From Rhizobiaceae bacterium (GTDB lineage: Bacteria; Pseudomonadota; Alphaproteobacteria; Rhizobiales; Rhizobiaceae): a stretch of 38,756 nucleotides of DNA. Position numbers and translations under genes: made by a program. Shown here piece by piece: positions 6,626 to 30,671 of this stretch (the stretch's first letter is position 1; each line of letters starts with the position of its first letter). The notes beneath the pieces are model-generated. The model was given only the letters and a program-made list of their open reading frames with translations. It was not told the DNA's origin and made no database searches. The stretch is taken from contig JASJDO010000009.1 of assembly GCA_030065115.1 (NCBI GenBank), positions 1 through 38,756 of the forward strand, in the 5' to 3' direction.

Positions 6626-6658
6626 AAAAGCAAAAGCCCGCCAACAGGTTTGGCGGGC
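6626..6658 (-). terminator. Rho-independent terminator of the polysaccharide operon
   Basis: Perfect 9-bp stem (arms 6636-6644 and 6650-6658, GCCCGCCAA with its complement) and a 5-base loop. On the minus strand it is followed by TTTTGCTTTTC. It lies just past the stop of the TolC-like gene and before the start of the acyl-CoA ligase gene, so it separates the two minus-strand units. Confidence 0.85.
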
Positions 6659-6680: not shown

Positions 6681-8027
6681 CTATTGCGACAAGGCGCGAA
6701 TGTTGTTTCGGTTTCTCTGCAATTGTTTAAGCGCAGCCTGAACACCTGCACGTTCAGCTCCTATGCGAACTTCTGCCACTTGTGCGAGTAGTTTAGCACG
6801 AAGTACCTCCGGACGATCTGGTTCCCCGATTTTTTTGATGGTGCTTTTTGTTCCGGTCAGTGCTCTGGTCAGTTCTCTTTCAGATTCACTCAGGTCTGCC
6901 ATCATTCGTGAAACTGCTCTGTCAGAAAATCCGCTTTTCCAGATTGTGCCTGAATTTTCTTCAAACAATGCGTCCAGCCGGGCTCCCGCTGCTTCTTCTT
7001 CCAATCGGTTTCTTCTTGTGGTCAATGCGCCCAGACGAACACCCACGCTCACCCGTGCGAAACCACCGGCAGTGTCAGAACGCTGGAGATTGCTATTAAA
7101 TTCATCGTTGTAACGATAGCCAGCACTTACGCTGAGCTCCAATGCGTCGTTGGTTCTAATCTCGCGTTCAATATTTTGAAGATCGTTGGTTGCTTCTACC
7201 AATGCACCGTGACGGCTTCTGATATCTCCCGGTGCAATGCCAGGTAGGTCTTGCCGTTGACTGGCTTCTGCTTTCGATTTTTCCATTTCTGCTTTTAACT
7301 GCTGAACCTGGCTTGTAATCGTGTTTGAATCTTGCTGGGTCAGGGTGCCTTCGCCAACATGAATTTGAGCAGTCCTTTCGATGTCGGCTAACTTACTCAG
7401 ACGAGTTCGAATATATGACTGTTTTGCCCAGGCATTGGCAAACCGCGTCGCTTCCACACCTAGTCCGAGTGTTGCCTCAATCTTCTTTGATGCTTCATGC
7501 AAACGGCATTTTGCATCGCCGGAAGCGCGGATCAGTTCAGACTTTCTAAAATCCAGCAGGTTCATGCCAACTGAAACCGATCCTGAACCGTCCTCATCAC
7601 TTGAAGCACTTAGTGTTGGTGACCCTACAATCACTGCTTCAGTGTCAGCAGATTTTCTGAGGTAACGGCATGCAGCGGAACTTGTGTCTACATTCACTCG
7701 CGAGAGTGCGCTTGGCTCGATCTTGAACGGCTGAACGGCTTCCACAGAAGGTGTTCTTGCTGTCAGACCAACTTTGTTATCCGTTTCCGGGTCGATCTCG
7801 TTCACATGGCTTTCGTGCGCATCGCGAATGAGGTCGGTGATCGTTTTGTCATCCCGCTCGTGTTTAGGATGTTTTTTCAGGCTTTCAAAGAAACTGCGAT
7901 TGTCAGCTTCGAACCATTCCTTGTTCTCATACGTGGACATTGAGCAGCCTGACAGGACCGCCGCAACGATCGCCGTTTTGAGCAGGCGGGTCAGCCCCTT
8001 AGAAAAATAACGGTGGTCTTCCAACAT
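6681..8027 (-). CDS. TolC-like outer membrane lipoprotein (polysaccharide export)
   Basis: 448 residues. The N-terminus is a lipoprotein signal: basic region, hydrophobic stretch and lipobox LSGC with Cys28. The rest is mostly long amphipathic helix with coiled-coil character, plus barrel-like strands near SVSVGMNLLDF and ARVSVGVRLGAL, each ahead of a helical hairpin. That two-repeat design is the plan of TolC/outer membrane factor proteins, although overall similarity to classical TolC is low. The start has a GAAGAG ribosome site and overlaps the end of the HlyD-like gene by 29 bases. With the membrane-fusion protein and the synthase upstream it would provide the outer membrane exit for the polymer. 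A periplasmic scaffolding lipoprotein is the main alternative. Confidence 0.75.
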   Translation of the reverse strand: MLEDHRYFSKGLTRLLKTAIVAAVLSGCSMSTYENKEWFEADNRSFFESLKKHPKHERDDKTITDLIRDAHESHVNEIDPETDNKVGLTARTPSVEAVQPFKIEPSALSRVNVDTSSAACRYLRKSADTEAVIVGSPTLSASSDEDGSGSVSVGMNLLDFRKSELIRASGDAKCRLHEASKKIEATLGLGVEATRFANAWAKQSYIRTRLSKLADIERTAQIHVGEGTLTQQDSNTITSQVQQLKAEMEKSKAEASQRQDLPGIAPGDIRSRHGALVEATNDLQNIEREIRTNDALELSVSAGYRYNDEFNSNLQRSDTAGGFARVSVGVRLGALTTRRNRLEEEAAGARLDALFEENSGTIWKSGFSDRAVSRMMADLSESERELTRALTGTKSTIKKIGEPDRPEVLRAKLLAQVAEVRIGAERAGVQAALKQLQRNRNNIRALSQ

Positions 8028-9645
8028 GGATAATCTCTTCTTGTGCTGCCGATTTTTCGGTCAGGTTCGCTTCAACGAACTGCCCACGGATTGGTTTTCC
8101 AAAGAATGGATGGGTTGTTACTATTTCGCCGCCGATGCCATCTCCAACCGTGCCCACCTTGGTGCACCAGAAGATTGCAAAAGCACATGTGTACAGAGGT
8201 TCACCTGCCTCATAGGAATTGATATTGTCGTAAGGGACAAAAAGCACATTCACAGGTTGTTCCAAAGCGCGGATCATTGGTGTGCTTTCCAGTTCCTTAA
8301 TGGAATTGGTCAAAACAGAAATACTGTTCTCCAGTGTTGACTTGGCAGCCGTGGCCTCAGTCAGATCCGAATTCGCTGCAGCGCGAATTTGCTGGACCTC
8401 GATTACCTGATTGGCGATCGGGATGAATTCTGCTTTCCCGGTAGCGATCACACCATTCGAAGTACCGCCGCTCAGTTGAGCTTTCAGCTGTGTCAGATAG
8501 GCCTTCGCCTGTGATCCCAAGCGCTGCTCGTTCTGCTTTCTGGAAATACGTTCGTTGAGATTGACTATATTTTCTTCAATCTCAGACAGATTGAGCATGG
8601 ACTGCTGGAAATTGCGACGCGTGATGACCCGGCGCTTGAATGCTGAGCGAAGTCTCTCGCGTTCCTTCTGACGACTTGCCTTGCTGCCGTAGCTACCCAA
8701 GACACCCTCAAGCGCTTTCAGATCGTCGTCGATCAGTACTTCCTGATCTTTCTGGTTTTCGATTTCCTGGTCCAGTGTAGAGCCAACAATTTGCGCCAAT
8801 ACATCGGCTCGGTCCAGGTCTTTCTGGGCGCGTTCTTCTTTGCCTTGCGCATCAGCCATTTGCTGCAAGACAAGATTTCGTTTGACCTGTAATTCGCCGC
8901 GTTCGCGCTCGGCCTTGATTACTGTTTCATGACCGCGTTGCAGTTGCAGCGGTGTCGACCAATCGCCTGCAATCAGGAAATATGCGATCATCACGCCATA
9001 GCTGATGAATGCAACAAACAATGCGGCCAGCAGTGTCAGCGCAATGTTTTTGTAGAGCAGTGACAATATGGGTGTCAGGCCGGGAATTACGCGAGCCAGC
9101 GCAGACATTGCCTTGAGGTAGACGGGACGCATGTCTTCCTCTTCAACAGTCTCTACGCTGGCTCTTTCCACCTCCCCGTGGATCTCTGGTGTATCAATAT
9201 CGTGTTCGCGACGGCCAAGATTATCTTCGGGCTGATCCTCGGTTCGGCTGTCTACAACCTCAACTCCGAGAGACTTCGCGATTTCGATCGGATTGTAAGG
9301 CGACTGGATCACGTCATCGACGCCCGGAATGGCCAAAATGGTTTCAGCGGACTGAGGTCCGGCAAGAACCGTCAACTTGCCAATGGATTTCACCCGCGCC
9401 AAAGCAGGGATCGTCAATGCAAGTGCGCCATCCTCGCGATTATCAACCAAGACATGGTCAAATTCACCGGAGCGCAAGAACTCAAGTGCCTCTGCGCCGG
9501 TATCCGCAGCGCAGATTTCTGCAGTGCTGCGCAAGCGCAATAAAGCTGCTGCCAACCCGCGGGCGGCTTGTCCCATAACAAGGATTCTCGCACGCTCAGA
9601 CGTTTCAACCGGGGTGTTTTCCGTATGCACCAGTTTGATGGTCAT
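7999..9645 (-). CDS. Membrane-fusion (HlyD-like) protein with N-terminal pseudo-receiver domain
   Basis: 548 residues in an unusual order. Residues 20-127 look like a CheY-type receiver: alternating strand and helix, FDHVLVD ending in Asp68 at the phospho-acceptor position. However, the acidic pair is Gly25-Gln26, the switch Thr is Ala95 and the conserved Lys is Ser115, so it is probably not a normal phospho-receiver. An acidic linker (130-172) leads to a transmembrane helix at about 201-226. Long coiled coils follow (about 236-460), then a periplasmic beta domain (463-530) of the HlyD/Alg44-like type. The ATG overlaps the GT2 stop (ATGA). It likely links the inner membrane synthase to the outer membrane channel, with the cytoplasmic domain sensing a signal or binding the synthase. 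Confidence 0.8.
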   Translation of the reverse strand: MTIKLVHTENTPVETSERARILVMGQAARGLAAALLRLRSTAEICAADTGAEALEFLRSGEFDHVLVDNREDGALALTIPALARVKSIGKLTVLAGPQSAETILAIPGVDDVIQSPYNPIEIAKSLGVEVVDSRTEDQPEDNLGRREHDIDTPEIHGEVERASVETVEEEDMRPVYLKAMSALARVIPGLTPILSLLYKNIALTLLAALFVAFISYGVMIAYFLIAGDWSTPLQLQRGHETVIKAERERGELQVKRNLVLQQMADAQGKEERAQKDLDRADVLAQIVGSTLDQEIENQKDQEVLIDDDLKALEGVLGSYGSKASRQKERERLRSAFKRRVITRRNFQQSMLNLSEIEENIVNLNERISRKQNEQRLGSQAKAYLTQLKAQLSGGTSNGVIATGKAEFIPIANQVIEVQQIRAAANSDLTEATAAKSTLENSISVLTNSIKELESTPMIRALEQPVNVLFVPYDNINSYEAGEPLYTCAFAIFWCTKVGTVGDGIGGEIVTTHPFFGKPIRGQFVEANLTEKSAAQEEIIHVGRPPLFF

Positions 9646-10856
9646 GCGGCAACCGCTTTCTTCTTTTTAGCGCCGCGTGTTTCCCAGGATGTGGTTCCCA
9701 GTGTAGCAAGTGCCAGCGGGTTCATGGTCAGATAAACAATCGGGAATATGAGAGCCATTGCCATAAACCAGATGCCGCTTGTACGTGCCATCTCGGGTAC
9801 TTTGTGCTTGTTCAATTCGTAGGCAATGCCGAAACACGATGCGAGAAGTGCATGCAAAATGAACGGGATCATAAAGCCCAGACGAATGAATTCTGCGAGC
9901 AAGACCAACGGATAGAACAACAGCAACATGCCCATTGAGAGGTAGTGGATTGCTACGTAAGTGTTGAACTTGTTGATGTTCGGGATCGCCGTGATCAGGT
10001 CAATCATGTTTGATCGGCGCCAACGCAATTGTTGTGACAGATAATTTGCGAAAGTCGCTGGTGCTTTGGTGTAGCACTGTGCGTCAAATGTCAGGCGTGT
10101 TTTATAACCACGCTCGACGAGTTTGCGGGTGAGATAGCGATCTTCACCATATTTTACTTCATCCCCGAGGAAGCGTCGATCGGCAACATCCTCATCAACT
10201 GCCAGTAAAGCTTCTCGTTTGTAGACAGTCAGACAACCCGACAGGCACATGACGTGATTGAATGTATTCTCCACATTCTTGAGGAACATGTATCCTACCC
10301 AATACTTCACCGCTTGCATTCTTGTGAGCCAGTTTTCATCCGCATTGGATACAAACACACATCCGCCTACTGCATCTACGCCAGTAGAATGCAAGTGTTT
10401 GACCATGTTGCGAAGGGCATCGCGTTCGACGATCACATCTGAATCAACCGACATGACCAGGTCAGTATCAATGGTCAGTACGGCACGTTTGATGCCGAGG
10501 CGCTTGCCCATGTTGTGAGGATTGCGGTCAACCCGCATCCAGGGATGGTTTTTTTGCGCGGTAAGGAGATGTTCATACGTATCATCGGTCGATACATCGT
10601 CAACGAAGATGACGTTGAGCTTGTCTTTTGGATAATCAAGTTTGGCAAAACTGTCTGCTGTCTTAATAACAGTTGGGCCTTCATTATATACAGGAGTAAC
10701 GATCGTCACAGAGGGCCATACTTCCGGCTCTGTGCCAAAATCCTCTTTCGTCCGCTTGTCCAACATGCGGAGAATGGATCCGAACAAATATCTGTTCGTA
10801 AATATGATCAATACCAAAATGGCAAAAAGCCATTCCAGCGCCGCTAGGCCAATCAT
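9642..10856 (-). CDS. Processive family 2 glycosyltransferase, hyaluronan/chitin synthase-like
   Basis: 404 residues from an ATG with an AAGAGAA ribosome site; a frame opening at 10928 adds 24 polar residues and is less likely. One N-terminal membrane helix (about 6-22) precedes the GT-A domain: TPVYNEG, the DSD motif at 138-140, GEDR with the catalytic Asp239, and QQLRW (275-279), the QxxRW mark of processive polymer synthases. The segment CLSGCLTVYKREAL and the phrasing EDRYLTRKLVERGYKTR are like hyaluronan synthase and NodC rather than cellulose synthase. Three to four C-terminal membrane helices follow, and no PilZ domain is present. The donor is probably a UDP-HexNAc or UDP-uronic sugar, given the dehydrogenase gene next door. 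Confidence 0.87.
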   Translation of the reverse strand: MIGLAALEWLFAILVLIIFTNRYLFGSILRMLDKRTKEDFGTEPEVWPSVTIVTPVYNEGPTVIKTADSFAKLDYPKDKLNVIFVDDVSTDDTYEHLLTAQKNHPWMRVDRNPHNMGKRLGIKRAVLTIDTDLVMSVDSDVIVERDALRNMVKHLHSTGVDAVGGCVFVSNADENWLTRMQAVKYWVGYMFLKNVENTFNHVMCLSGCLTVYKREALLAVDEDVADRRFLGDEVKYGEDRYLTRKLVERGYKTRLTFDAQCYTKAPATFANYLSQQLRWRRSNMIDLITAIPNINKFNTYVAIHYLSMGMLLLFYPLVLLAEFIRLGFMIPFILHALLASCFGIAYELNKHKVPEMARTSGIWFMAMALIFPIVYLTMNPLALATLGTTSWETRGAKKKKAVAA

Positions 10857-11023
10857 GCGTTTCTCTTTCTTTTTATTGCATGACTGATTACGGTTTTGCG
10901 TCCCCGTCATCAGCGTCCCTGCAGGCACGATATAAAAGGGGCGCTAAAGTGTGCCTAACAAAACTGGTTACCAAACCATTGATGTGACTCAGGGTAAACA
11001 AAACCTTTTTGAAAAGATCAAAA

Positions 11024-11052
11024 TTGACGCGAAAAATTACCTGAAATTTACT
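11024..11052 (+). promoter_or_regulatory. Candidate sigma-70 promoter in the 293-bp divergent region
   Basis: TTGACG, 17 bases, TTTACT, reading toward the nucleotide-sugar dehydrogenase gene and ending about 98 bases before its ATG. The region 10857-11149 separates the divergent synthase operon and the dehydrogenase gene, so it should hold promoters in both directions. It also has a small inverted sequence (TGGTT..AACCA near 10967-10981) that could be an operator. I see no other recognisable element in it. Confidence 0.4.
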
Positions 11053-11149
11053 GTATCAATTCATCAATTTTTTTAGGGTTGGCACTACAACCGTCTGCAA
11101 GGCTGAAAACCAAAATAAAATGCCTATCAATAGCAGGGGTGCAATAGCA

Positions 11150-12517
11150 ATGAATACAGCGATGCCAATCGCGCATACAAATGTGCAAAATGGAAATCTG
11201 AAACTCGTCCAATCCGTAGACCTTCCTGACCCGGAAAATGCAGTAGTTGCAGTGCTTGGGCTTGGATATGTTGGTCTGCCTTTGATGGTCGGATTTGCAG
11301 ATAATGCGAGGACTATCGGATTTGATATCGATGAGAGCCGCATCGCTTCATTGACACGCGGCGATGATCCAACAGAGATGGCAACGCGTGATGAACTTCT
11401 CAAAGAAAATATGGAATATTCTTGCGATGTGAATTCATTGCAAGACGCTGATGTAATGGTTGTGTGCGTGCCAACGCCTGTGATGCAGGGCAATCGGCCA
11501 GACTATCGTCCGGTGCTTGCTGCTACTCGTACGATTGCTGAAAACATGAAGCGCGGGTGTGTTGTGGTGTTTGAGAGCACTGTCGACCCCGGCACAACAG
11601 AAAACAAATGTATTCCAATTCTTGAAGAAGTCTCAGGAATGCAGGAAGGCGTGGATTTTTATGTCGGATATTCTCCAGAGCGTGTTTCACCTGGTGAGAA
11701 AATGCGTCGTGTCGGAGATATCGCCAAAATCGTATCGGGTTCATCGCCAGCGGTAACAGATTTTCTAGCCGTGCTTTACAGCCGGGTCGTAAAGGCCGGG
11801 CTCTTTAAAGCGGCATCGATCAAGGTTGCTGAGGCAGCTAAAATCCTGGAAAACACACAGCGGGATGTAAACATCGCGTTGATCAATGAGATGATGCAAT
11901 TGTTTGATTCCATGGACATCAAGGTTACCGACGTTGTCGCGGCTGCGGGTTCAAAGTGGAACTTCCACAAATACTTCCCTGGCCTGGTCGGGGGACATTG
12001 TATCTCTGTCGACCCGTTCTTCCTGCTTAATGCCGGTCGTAGCCAGGGTCTTTCCATGGACATGGTTGCTTCTGCTCGTGCCGTAAACGAACGCACGGCA
12101 CATTATATCTCAGACAAAGTTCATGAGATGCTCGATGATGAAGCGCATGATCTGCAAGGGAAACGTGTTCTCGTTCTCGGCCGCGCATTCAAGGATAATT
12201 GCCCTGACATTCGTAACTCAAAATCATTTGCGGTTATGGATAGCCTCTGGGCGCGCGGTGCTGACGTATTCTCTTACGACCCTATCGCTGATGATACCCA
12301 TTTTGAGGGTGGGCGCGGTGCCAAGGTGATCGATGATATTGAAGCGGAAGGTCCATATGATGCAGTGGTTGTGACAGCCAAGCATGATTGCTTTGTTGAA
12401 GAAATTGATCTGATCAGACTGGCGTCGGTTCTGCAGCGTGGCGCACCGGTGGTTGATCTGCGTGGCCTGTTTGACGAGTCACTGGCAAAGCTCCAGTTCA
12501 AATACTGGACGCCATAA
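11150..12517 (+). CDS. TviB-like UDP-N-acetylhexosamine 6-dehydrogenase
   Basis: 455 residues from the ATG preceded by AGGGG; an ATG ten codons earlier is possible. It has the NAD-binding GLGYVGLP (37-44), the central KVAEAAKILENTQRDVNIALINE helix region and the catalytic Cys284 in GGHCISVDP, then the C-terminal UDP-binding domain with FKDNCPDIRNSK. Phrases such as FESTVDPGTTE, YVGYSPERVSPG, AAGSKWNF and ENTQRD are those of Vi-antigen TviB/WbpA-type enzymes, which oxidise UDP-GlcNAc or UDP-GalNAc to the uronic acid, rather than UDP-glucose or GDP-mannose dehydrogenases. It is divergent from the synthase operon and likely supplies its donor sugar. Ser286 replaces the usual Gly after HCI. Confidence 0.85.
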   Translation: MNTAMPIAHTNVQNGNLKLVQSVDLPDPENAVVAVLGLGYVGLPLMVGFADNARTIGFDIDESRIASLTRGDDPTEMATRDELLKENMEYSCDVNSLQDADVMVVCVPTPVMQGNRPDYRPVLAATRTIAENMKRGCVVVFESTVDPGTTENKCIPILEEVSGMQEGVDFYVGYSPERVSPGEKMRRVGDIAKIVSGSSPAVTDFLAVLYSRVVKAGLFKAASIKVAEAAKILENTQRDVNIALINEMMQLFDSMDIKVTDVVAAAGSKWNFHKYFPGLVGGHCISVDPFFLLNAGRSQGLSMDMVASARAVNERTAHYISDKVHEMLDDEAHDLQGKRVLVLGRAFKDNCPDIRNSKSFAVMDSLWARGADVFSYDPIADDTHFEGGRGAKVIDDIEAEGPYDAVVVTAKHDCFVEEIDLIRLASVLQRGAPVVDLRGLFDESLAKLQFKYWTP

Positions 12518-12544
12518 GGTTGCATTGTACTTTAAAAATTGAAG

Positions 12545-12572
12545 AGCCGGGCTTTGATAGCCCGGCTTTTTT
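12545..12572 (+). terminator. Rho-independent terminator after the dehydrogenase gene
   Basis: Perfect 8-bp stem AGCCGGGC/GCCCGGCT with a 7-base loop and a run of six T, 28 bases past the TAA. The minus-strand ferredoxin oxidoreductase gene ends only three bases further on. The A-rich left side (TTAAAAATT) may let the hairpin serve both strands. Confidence 0.9.
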
Positions 12573-28637: not shown

Positions 28638-30671
28638 CTAAACCGCTAAATCGCGAACCGGCCTTCCATAATTCGTCAGCCACTTTTTTGTATCTTCGAT
28701 GGACATGGGCATTCCAATTCCAAACCCTTGCGCATAATCGCAACCAGTGGCTTTCAAACTTGTATATTGCTCGCGGGTTTCGATACCCTCGGCAGTGACT
28801 TCCAATCCCATTTTCTGGCTCAATTGAATGATAGTATCAACCACCACTTTGCTGCGGGGTTCATGAAGATTTTCAATCAAACCCTGATCAATTTTCAAAC
28901 CGGAAAGCTTCAGGTTTGCCAACGTGGACAAGGATGCATATCCGGTACCAAAATCATCAATCTCCACTTTGAAACCTTGTTCCGAAAGGGTGCGAAGGGT
29001 CGCATGAGTTGCCTCGTCCGTATTGGCAATCAGGGTCGTTTCCAAAACTTCTACAGTCACATCGGATGGTTTGAGACCGCGTTTTTCAACCTTTGCAAAA
29101 AGATCGTACACGAATGTGGCAGACTGCAGCGATGCCCCCGAAGCATTGATAGAGATGCTCGGCACTTCCCAACCATCGTTTCTCAATTTCACAAGTGCGT
29201 CCAGCCCCTTGCAAATTGCCTGCTGATCAATTTCCTCGACGATTCCTGTTTCCTGGGCAAGTTCCAGAAATTCTTCAGGCGCCAGAATACCTCTATTGGG
29301 ATGCTGCCAGCGGGTCAGCACTTCGAGGCCTTGCAGGCTTCCGTCCTTCATACTCACCTTAGGTTGAAAGAACGGAAAGAATTCCTGATCTGCGACGGCA
29401 TGCTGGAGGTCCTGTCCGAGCGTATGGCGAAACTCAACATCACGTCGCATTTTCTCATGGAAGAAAACAGCACGTCCTCGTCCTGCGTTCTTTGCGGCGT
29501 AGAGCGCAATATCTGCATTTGCCATCAGGTCATCGCCATTGTCATTTGCCCCAGAGGCAAAGATGTAACCGATGCTTGCGCCAATACTGCAGGTGTTTCC
29601 GTCAATAACCATCGGCTGTTTTACCCGAGTAATAATTGCTTCCGCGATGCGGTGTGCTGCCTGAACGGGATGGCTTTCATCAATGTTGAGGACAATAACA
29701 AACTCATCGCCTCCTACGCGTGCTACCAGGTCAGTTTTGCGCACACGTGCCTTCATGTTTTCCGCTGTTTTACGGATAACCTCGTCACCGACCGGATGCC
29801 CGAGGGAATCGTTTATTTCCTTGAAACGATCCAAATCAATATGCATCACGCACAGGTGGGTGTTGTTTTCCCTCCGCTCTTTCAGCATTCGAGCCAGTTC
29901 TGAGGAGAGTTTCTTTCTGTTGGCCAATCCGGTCAGGTGATCATGATTGGCAGCATGATCCAATTGTTGCGAGAGCGAGGTCAGTTCGCTGTTTTGTTCA
30001 CTCAGTTGTTTTGCCTTTTCTTCTGCTGTGTCCAACGAGGTTACTACACTGTTGTGCGCTGGCCAGAAAATCAACAGCGCTTCTGCGACTAGAAGTGAAA
30101 TCGCGAGTACAAGGGCGAAGGTTTGGTAGTCATGCAGTGTTCCAATGCGTGCGTTTGCATCACTGGCGAAGGCTTTAACTGCATCATCCAGTTGGGAAAG
30201 TAGAGATGAAAATGCCGCATTTTGAATTTGTAGGACAGAAAAAGAAGTGTTTCCCTGATTACCAATGTTCTCCAAAAAGGCATACACGTTGTCGATGAAT
30301 TCGCGACTTCTTTTGTCCAGCCCGATATTTGATCCTTCAGCATAAATTTCCGCGACCGTCGGAATGTCTTTTGCAAAAATCAGCAGTTTATCGTGGGCTG
30401 TCTCAAACTGGGTAACAGCCTCTCGCAATGATGCGGCAACGAGGGGTTGCTTGGGGGTTTCGGAAAGTATCAAGACGAGACCGGAAATCCGCTGGCTCAA
30501 CATGCGCTGCCGTCCGCTTAGGTCGATTATCTCAGCATCATTTGCACCAGAGTTGATGATGGTGATGTGAAGTCCATGACCACACAAGAGCATCATGAGC
30601 AGCAATAGCAAGCCTACAAGATATCGTCTCCAGAGCTTTTTCGGGTTGGAAATCTGGAACAATTTTCTCAT
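28638..30671 (-). CDS. Membrane GGDEF-EAL protein with PilJ/NarX-type periplasmic sensor
   Basis: 677 residues. Transmembrane helices at about 17-38 and 183-203 bracket a periplasmic helical sensor containing IIDLSGRQRMLSQRISGL, the mark of PilJ-type domains. A short coiled coil leads to the GGDEF domain: active-site GGDEF (320-324) intact, with the inhibitory I-site RKTD (311-314) in the right place. The EAL domain has EVL (450-452) instead of EAL, but the other metal and catalytic residues appear present: Asn in SINAS, Glu in EVLET, DDFGTGYASL, LKID, AEGIE and YAQG. It probably both makes and degrades cyclic di-GMP in response to a periplasmic signal. Upstream TGGAG site. Stands alone, with no cognate partner nearby. 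Confidence 0.92.
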   Translation of the reverse strand: MRKLFQISNPKKLWRRYLVGLLLLLMMLLCGHGLHITIINSGANDAEIIDLSGRQRMLSQRISGLVLILSETPKQPLVAASLREAVTQFETAHDKLLIFAKDIPTVAEIYAEGSNIGLDKRSREFIDNVYAFLENIGNQGNTSFSVLQIQNAAFSSLLSQLDDAVKAFASDANARIGTLHDYQTFALVLAISLLVAEALLIFWPAHNSVVTSLDTAEEKAKQLSEQNSELTSLSQQLDHAANHDHLTGLANRKKLSSELARMLKERRENNTHLCVMHIDLDRFKEINDSLGHPVGDEVIRKTAENMKARVRKTDLVARVGGDEFVIVLNIDESHPVQAAHRIAEAIITRVKQPMVIDGNTCSIGASIGYIFASGANDNGDDLMANADIALYAAKNAGRGRAVFFHEKMRRDVEFRHTLGQDLQHAVADQEFFPFFQPKVSMKDGSLQGLEVLTRWQHPNRGILAPEEFLELAQETGIVEEIDQQAICKGLDALVKLRNDGWEVPSISINASGASLQSATFVYDLFAKVEKRGLKPSDVTVEVLETTLIANTDEATHATLRTLSEQGFKVEIDDFGTGYASLSTLANLKLSGLKIDQGLIENLHEPRSKVVVDTIIQLSQKMGLEVTAEGIETREQYTSLKATGCDYAQGFGIGMPMSIEDTKKWLTNYGRPVRDLAV

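Follow-up and report, generated by a model that had tools for sequence, protein, structure and literature searches.

Does a compact four-gene locus in an uncultured Rhizobiaceae bacterium encode a self-contained machine for making and exporting an acidic amino-sugar polymer? The locus lies at positions 6681-12517 of a 38,756-nucleotide stretch of DNA (the whole stretch is called the window here: contig JASJDO010000009.1 of assembly GCA_030065115.1, C153 in our handles, from a 3.18 Mb genome that is 94% complete and comprises 191 contigs). Overlapping genes on the minus strand encode a glycosyltransferase family 2 (GT2) synthase (9642-10856; 404 residues), a membrane-fusion or periplasmic adaptor protein (MFP; 7999-9645; 548 residues) and a TolC-fold outer-membrane factor, presumed to be a lipoprotein (OMP; 6681-8027; 448 residues, LSGC near the N-terminus), and a TviB-type nucleotide-sugar 6-dehydrogenase, predicted to act on UDP-N-acetylglucosamine (UDP-GlcNAc), runs divergently from them on the plus strand (11120-12517; 465 residues). 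An earlier note on this DNA had proposed a synthase/adaptor/outer-membrane operon beside such a dehydrogenase, and the open reading frames (ORFs) are found where it placed them, with overlaps of 29 bp between OMP and MFP and of 4 bp between MFP and GT2. The module is a real and conserved variant of synthase-dependent export, for which we infer a product and a conduit: it is likely a dedicated tripartite machine that would make and export a beta-linked polymer containing N-acetylhexosaminuronic acid (HexNAcA).

The strongest sign that the four products work together is that the gene content of the module is conserved while its order is shuffled. Named genomes were scanned with a GT2 alignment, using profiles built from four module members, and at least 80 loci were kept. 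Among the matches listed, 16 loci have high GT2 profile scores (at least 370 bits, but 273 bits for the contig-cut locus L042), and an MFP is present in all 13 that can be tested, the other three being cut before the MFP position; among the 64 listed loci with lower GT2 scores (247 bits or less, some on short contigs), no MFP or OMP match was found. Adding the window, the L017 locus on a Paraburkholderia plasmid and the L032 locus of genome G852 to the 16 scan loci gives at least 19 first-round loci, 14 of which hold all four genes; four others are cut by contig ends, and in L055 the dehydrogenase is missing. To guard against circularity, a search was also made with only the MFP profile; it yielded four further loci, in all of which a GT2 gene adjoins the MFP gene, with a divergent dehydrogenase in three. 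This brings the total to at least 23 distinct loci, from Hyphomicrobiales and Burkholderiales and from one Acidobacteriaceae metagenome-assembled genome, with the dehydrogenase linked in 21 of 23; the earlier note had proposed a search for the four-gene neighbourhood across Alphaproteobacteria, and the set recurs beyond that class. In these counts L018 and L034, one contig under two handles (80,962 bases, 100% match), are counted once, and L001, L010 and L019, which are shorter cuts of the window, L018 and L032, are excluded; contig ends make the MFP untestable in L037, L042 and L049 and the OMP in L037, L039, L042 and L167, and L039 yields only a partial MFP, as L049 and L168 yield only partial OMPs.

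In all 13 alphaproteobacterial-type loci with both genes, the dehydrogenase gene is divergent from a GT2-MFP-OMP series. The order is GT2-MFP-OMP-dehydrogenase in Xylophilus and G852, dehydrogenase-GT2-MFP-OMP in Cupriavidus, and MFP-OMP-dehydrogenase-GH16-GT2, with an additional gene discussed below, in Paraburkholderia and Caballeronia. Cultured carriers include Caballeronia sordidicola and Cupriavidus sp. YR651, and L047 belongs to Paraburkholderia diazotrophica. Co-occurrence of the module genes in such distant taxa and in different orders is beyond chance. It bears directly on the possibility that the MFP and the TolC-fold OMP serve efflux or type I secretion and only happen to adjoin the GT2 and dehydrogenase genes, which we consider very improbable: the fold matches of the two proteins are indeed efflux adaptors and channels, and in one locus (L045) the dehydrogenase has branched-chain-amino-acid-type ATP-binding cassette (ABC) genes next to it, but the MFP accompanies a GT2 in all 13 testable high-scoring loci listed from the scan and in all four found by the MFP profile, the coding regions overlap in the window, and the only ABC genes among annotated neighbours are the import-type genes of L045 and a TOBE-type ATPase gene at a distance of 13 kb in the window.

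What kind of synthase the GT2 protein may be is indicated by Pfam, curated models and the PDB, all of which place it with the NodC/hyaluronan/chitin synthase type. It matches Pfam Glyco_tranf_2_3 at 5.3e-26, its best PDB sequence match is hyaluronan synthase 1, and its best-scoring curated GT2 model is that of the chitooligosaccharide synthase NodC (TIGR04242), at 173 bits against a cut-off of 550. The protein is hydrophobic at both ends and carries the motifs DDVSTD, DSD, CLSGCL, GEDR, QQLRW and SWETRG, whose roles we take to be the customary ones; family and motifs fit a predicted inner-membrane polysaccharide synthase, with a membrane topology judged by eye. DSD and QxxRW are kept in 22 of the 22 module GT2s examined (the partial GT2 of L042 was excluded from the motif count and from the tree). 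In a FastTree phylogeny of 33 GT2s, the alphaproteobacterial-type module enzymes form one clade (support 1.000) and those of Burkholderiales plus Acidobacteriaceae another (0.999), and both are split from NodC, PgaC, BcsA, BgsA and other GT2s at 0.882.

The same tree speaks to a mixed-linkage glucan locus, an identity that the earlier note had named as one that would overturn its proposal: BgsA pairs with BcsA at 1.000, outside the module GT2 clades, and this candidate was dropped. As far as the accessible part of the source describes it, the BgsBA system of Sinorhizobium and Rhizobium (PMC9495663), one of the two nearest to the module, is likewise an operon of HlyD-like and GT2 genes in Rhizobiaceae; it differs in the placement of BgsA, in that BgsB shows no hhalign relation to the MFP, and in its annotated surroundings, which include neither an outer-membrane gene nor a dehydrogenase gene. 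NodC, too, stands on a separate branch.

The dehydrogenase provides the main clue to the product. It belongs to the NDP-sugDHase subfamily (TIGR03026; 368 bits, above the cut-off of 189.8), and its best specific model is TviB (NF011729; 339 bits). Of the 21 known module dehydrogenases, 18 were checked (those of L165-L167 lie outside the motif count and the tree), and all 18 carry the motif SPER[V/I]xP, as do two TviB-annotated references, whereas the two other dehydrogenases of the source genome that pass the Pfam cut-off have NPEFLREG at the same place; E. coli WecC has CPERVLP, and the motif pattern gave no match in E. coli Ugd. We take this motif, partly from general knowledge, to divide enzymes acting on N-acetylhexosamine (HexNAc) nucleotides from those acting on glucose or mannose nucleotides. 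In the dehydrogenase tree, WecC, Ugd and the genome's own C132 enzyme stand apart from the module enzymes. An enzyme acting on UDP-glucose only, the second outcome that the earlier note had held to be fatal to its proposal, is thus disfavoured by the motif.

These data also allow a neutral product to be weighed, that is, the same machine making a chitin-like GlcNAc chain, a beta-glucan or another UDP-glucose-derived chain while the dehydrogenase serves a different pathway or sugar. Models of NodC and of chitin synthase rank among the top matches of the GT2, and the dehydrogenase is not linked in L055 and L168, so HexNAcA may not be obligatory; linkage in the other loci despite differing gene orders, and the uniform SPER motif in a module whose host genome has two further dehydrogenases of the NPEFLREG type, make this alternative unlikely in our view. 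Within the preferred reading, an acidic polymer with HexNAcA, a hyaluronan- or heparosan-like chain alternating GlcNAc with N-acetylglucosaminuronic acid (GlcNAcA) or glucuronic acid (GlcA), in place of a HexNAcA homopolymer, is a serious but minority possibility. Hyaluronan synthase, the best match of solved structure, is a two-substrate enzyme, but the model of NodC, a one-substrate enzyme, matches the GT2 as well, and the recurring neighbours annotated, a subset, include no second nucleotide-sugar enzyme. That the uronic acid is GlcNAcA rather than its galacto counterpart GalNAcA is a guess; no epimerase occurs among the recurring neighbours annotated, again that subset, and no search aimed at epimerases was made.

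A small gene encoding a GH16-like protein stands directly beside the GT2 gene in six Burkholderiales/Acidobacteriaceae loci (L017:10014-10691, L044:6255-6995, L046:6315-6992, L047:6312-6995, L049:2235-3062 and L055:3325-4230), which suggests a beta-linked backbone. Five of them were scored with Pfam (cut-off 22 bits), at 21.7, 22.4, 22.4, 30.2 and 47.6 bits, and that of L047 was assigned by similarity; the five Burkholderiales GH16-like proteins hold the motif NEIDIE, which we take to be significant for this family. GH16 enzymes mostly act on beta-glucans and galactans, a point in favour of the neutral chain discussed above.

Turning to the exit route, neither the OMP nor the MFP gave a match over cut-off in Pfam, NCBIfam or PDB sequence searches, and their assignments come from predicted folds. 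The AlphaFold2 model of the OMP (pLDDT 74.4, pTM 0.57) has the order strand pair, helices, strand pair, helices. Foldseek returned 38 matches with E ≤ 0.001, all of them outer-membrane channels (TolC, OprM, OprN, CusC and others; a few rows with generic titles we take to be OprN or TolC homologues), the best at 6e-9, and VIA-align gave Z values up to 15.2 (root-mean-square deviation [rmsd] 7.5 Å over 328 residues), the first non-channel rows appearing at Z 8.6. The protein is accordingly modeled as a TolC-type protomer that would have two strand pairs and long helical hairpins, which bears out the TolC-like lipoprotein of the earlier note as to fold, the lipoprotein part being presumed. It has no TPR match in Pfam and no Pfam OEP (PF02321) match at E ≤ 0.1, so that its relation to the TolC family is one of fold, and hhalign, a weak test here with single-sequence templates, found no relation between it and the OEP protein encoded elsewhere in the genome.

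The AlphaFold2 model of the MFP (pLDDT 80.6, pTM 0.46) shows a receiver (REC) fold, one presumed transmembrane helix, long helical hairpins and a C-terminal beta region in which Cys487 and Cys494 are invariant among 13 aligned sequences. The presumed transmembrane helix (residues 190-225; 8971-9078, minus strand) is a helix in the model and hydrophobic by eye. The best Foldseek match of the protein is the EmrA adaptor 4tko (E 8.5e-6, TM-score 0.19/0.30, rmsd 13.8 Å). On the earlier description of this protein as HlyD-like the observations are mixed: the order of transmembrane helix, hairpins and beta region fits and EmrA is best by fold, weakly so, but there is no Pfam HlyD match and the TM-score is low. 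With modest confidence, leaning on topology and context, we regard the MFP as a putative periplasmic adaptor.

The REC fold (residues 18-129; 9259-9594, minus strand) superimposes on the REC domain of TorR with a VIA-align Z of 13.9 and 2.6 Å over 108 residues. The window protein has Asp68 at the phospho-acceptor position and has lost the acidic pair and the Lys. Among 12 alphaproteobacterial-type MFPs (one of them partial, and L168 with an N-terminus that aligns poorly) the acceptor Asp is kept in all 12, the acidic pair after strand 1 in one (L041) and the Lys-Pro after strand 5 in one (L168), which suggests that these domains are mostly pseudo-receivers. The REC region is present in 7 of the 13 aligned MFPs, all alphaproteobacterial-type, and absent from the six from Burkholderiales and Acidobacteriaceae. 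No PilZ match was found by Pfam in any of the four module proteins; the MFP bears the REC fold instead. A precedent comes from Myxococcus, where, according to the accessible part of the source, post-translational activation of polysaccharide synthesis by a receiver protein is reported for EpsW and a phosphoglycosyl transferase (PMC12802240).

A sensor domain followed by a transmembrane helix and an adaptor region parallels Alg44 (PilZ-HlyD), and an alginate-type gene set exists elsewhere in the genome, which raises the question of a degenerate or laterally acquired alginate-type locus. We consider this the least probable of the alternatives, with next to no weight. The Pfam scan of 16 window proteins found no PilZ, lyase, epimerase or acetylation family, in agreement with the earlier note's statement that these alginate-type genes are absent; the dehydrogenase is of another type; and the MFP and OMP show no hhalign similarity to alginate-type proteins. 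The PilZ-HlyD protein and GDP-mannose-type dehydrogenase of this genome are encoded on other contigs: L129 (G000:C167:1273-9167) holds ManC-like, PMM, OEP (PF02321), NUDIX, PilZ-HlyD (Alg44-like) and GT2 genes, and L130 (G000:C17:473-7538) an NPEFLREG-type dehydrogenase, an MBOAT protein and two Sel1 proteins. Compared with alginate Alg8-Alg44-AlgK/E as we know it in general and from the accessible part of PMC4594306, the module is alike in having a sugar dehydrogenase, a GT2 and a cytoplasmic sensor domain fused to an MFP; it differs in having REC rather than PilZ, a TolC fold rather than a TPR protein and beta-barrel, no modifying enzymes and a dehydrogenase of TviB type.

How would such a machine operate? 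In the preferred reading, the dehydrogenase would convert UDP-GlcNAc to UDP-GlcNAcA, and the GT2 would build from this sugar, with or without GlcNAc, an acidic chain with beta linkages, threading it across the inner membrane during polymerization as hyaluronan and cellulose synthases do. The adaptor would then take the chain and bridge to a trimer of the TolC-fold lipoprotein for exit, a conduit that would need no TPR/beta-barrel porin, ABC exporter or Wzx/Wzy. In the Hyphomicrobiales form, the receiver fold of the adaptor would occupy the place that PilZ has in Alg44, where it would probably gate the synthase, either by phosphorylation or via a partner protein; in the Burkholderiales/Acidobacteriaceae form there is no receiver, and the GH16-like hydrolase that is often added would probably trim or clear the polymer. 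More tentatively, at somewhat short of an even chance, the locus may represent a new synthase-dependent class: a single-locus GT2-adaptor-TolC conduit for poly-HexNAcA, which would be an oxidised-chitin-like or glycosaminoglycan-like acidic polymer, with a membrane-tethered pseudo-receiver replacing cyclic di-GMP (c-di-GMP)/PilZ in Hyphomicrobiales and two-component or protein-partner input in control.

Several observations weigh against an HexNAcA-exporting tripartite machine. The TviB score of the window enzyme lies under the equivalog cut-off of 592, as do those of three further module dehydrogenases (361, 393 and 399 bits), and in the tree both TviB references fall among the module enzymes, so that this dehydrogenase family is not exclusive to the module. 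A linked dehydrogenase is missing from L055 and from L168, where about 8 kb upstream of the GT2 was read, and L055 also has a GT2 without three of the six motif patterns. A single clade of all module GT2s has a support of just the 0.882 given above. The structural models are of monomers and were built from alignments of 13 members; the EmrA match of the MFP is globally weak, the channel matches of the OMP have TM-scores of only 0.34-0.44 with rmsd of 7-10 Å, and hhalign, with single-sequence templates and hence as a weak test, found the MFP unrelated to the genome's Alg44-like protein or BgsB. The GH16 scores, finally, straddle the Pfam cut-off.

Where does the module stand among known systems? 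The accessible part of one overview gives five synthase-dependent polymers, whose machineries typically comprise a synthase, a c-di-GMP domain or co-polymerase, modification enzymes and a TPR protein plus pore (PMC7112194). The window locus has the synthase and lacks the other three (PilZ, periplasmic modification enzymes and a TPR-coupled pore), so it would work like a synthase-dependent system without being one of the five; if its product is as predicted, an acidic amino sugar would be added to the polymers listed there. The architecturally nearest system is cyanobacterial XcsA-XcsB(HlyD-like)-TolC for cellulose, a model that rests on homology modelling (PMC12430437). From what the accessible part of that 2025 review says, the two share a GT2 synthase and a TolC-like channel, joined by an adaptor that is HlyD-like in XcsB and putatively so in the module, with an operon endoglucanase in some cyanobacterial strains; in XcsAB-TolC the synthase carries PilZ and TolC lies outside the operon, whereas the module gathers its components at a single locus, has no PilZ, includes a dehydrogenase of the TviB type and carries the REC fold on its adaptor. 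The earlier note, which knew of no synthase-dependent system of this form for such a polymer, therefore overstated the novelty of the form, the more so as an OEP gene lies near a PilZ-HlyD/GT2 pair in the same genome. Because that OEP gene is near the Alg44-like gene, a TolC-type exit is suggested for the genome's alginate-type set as well, and the combination of synthase, adaptor and OEP may be more widespread than the usual scheme, an architecture less unique and more general. The note's list of parts was right as to the four genes and had missed the receiver fold of the MFP and the GH16-like neighbour gene.

Two further systems are alike in single features. The Vi antigen is a HexNAcA polymer that has a separate glycosyltransferase and ABC export system, and the phage N4 system is NfrB/NfrA, with a control domain and an outer-membrane protein that differ from those of the module. 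As far as the accessible parts of the sources go, viaB (tviB-E and vexA-E; PMC3448643) shares the TviB-type dehydrogenase, and the exopolysaccharide synthase for phage N4 infection of E. coli (PMC8669469) is likewise a synthase system outside the classical five. No description of the module was found in the literature searched, most subscription papers being outside reach. According to the accessible part of the 2025 review, the route of synthase, HlyD-like adaptor and TolC lacks experimental validation, its example is not one operon, and whether operon-organised clusters work in this way is an open question (PMC12430437). Since the module combines these parts in one place with an enzyme that probably supplies the precursor, and is found again in distant taxa, it allows this question to be tested directly.

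How common is the module? It is rare and patchy. Counting only near full-length MFP matches (most genome matches are to the REC region of other proteins), it was found in 1 of 385 genomes in the class draw and 2 of 297 in the order draw (both with a single-sequence query, which is less sensitive), 2 of 398 in the phylum draw, 1 of 300 in the order of G852 and 5 of 151 in the family draw; the draws overlap, and the window's own genome is among the matches in all except the G852-order draw. The matching genomes without a near full-length MFP were 8 of 9 (class), 6 of 8 (order), 12 of 14 (phylum), 55 of 56 (G852 order) and 39 of 44 (family). A scan of viral contigs found no relative. Two same-genus genomes, 99% complete, have no MFP match; they hold genes for an indolepyruvate ferredoxin oxidoreductase (IOR), an Lrp-type regulator and TrhO together, yet no module gene within the 16 kb stretches. 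These three genes also flank the module on one side in the window, with an acyl-CoA ligase and a PanE-like reductase on the other, so that its surroundings are ordinary metabolism. In L038 and L039 the module lies beside IOR too, with an RTX gene between, and in G1309 module and IOR are on separate contigs. Two candidates were rejected: a weak MFP match on a Caballeronia plasmid (L033), an unannotated stretch among VWA, WXG100 and FtsK genes, was judged to be chance, and a PETase match for one Paraburkholderia protein was under cut-off, the protein being the MFP. Recombinase or resolvase genes occur near the module at L055:862-2199 (Pfam) and L017:16475-17242 (by eye), compatible with lateral transfer, and the same-family locus L168:441-6592 has GT2, MFP and partial OMP genes and, upstream of the GT2, two ORFs of 491 and 504 residues with no Pfam match.

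As to the boundaries of the window locus, the GT2 ORF is open to 10928, and its start is probably the ATG at 10856 rather than the GTG at 10928. The distance to the divergent dehydrogenase ORF is then 263 bp, and this intergenic region (10857-11119, from the ORF limits) presumably holds the promoters. Right after the OMP stop lies an intrinsic-terminator-like stem (6636-6658, minus strand) of nine pairs, seven of them G-C, with a T-rich tail, in accord with the terminator that the earlier note assigned to the operon. A second stem of 13 pairs follows the dehydrogenase (12541-12571, plus strand), a related one being scored on the minus strand at 12567-12545. It should be noted that the scan scored 17 sites as terminator-like where shuffled sequence gave 10.3 (sd 2.6), so that its weak sites are not evidence.

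Genes possibly concerned with c-di-GMP turnover occur near the module in other loci, namely EAL-domain proteins at L017:14420-15739 (Pfam), L044:969-2291 and L047:1261-2544 (both by similarity) and HD-domain proteins at L034:1374-2714 (Pfam HD_5 on the identical L018 locus) and L035:737-2086 (by similarity). In the window, a GGDEF-EAL protein with a PilJ-type N-terminal match is encoded at 28638-30671, 16 kb from the module, with no link shown. Finally, proteins with RTX calcium-binding repeats, which are possibly extracellular partners of an acidic polymer, are encoded beside the module at L037:316-2358, L038:3029-4870, L039:1628-3709 and L041:11052-13013 (Pfam in three; L039 by similarity).

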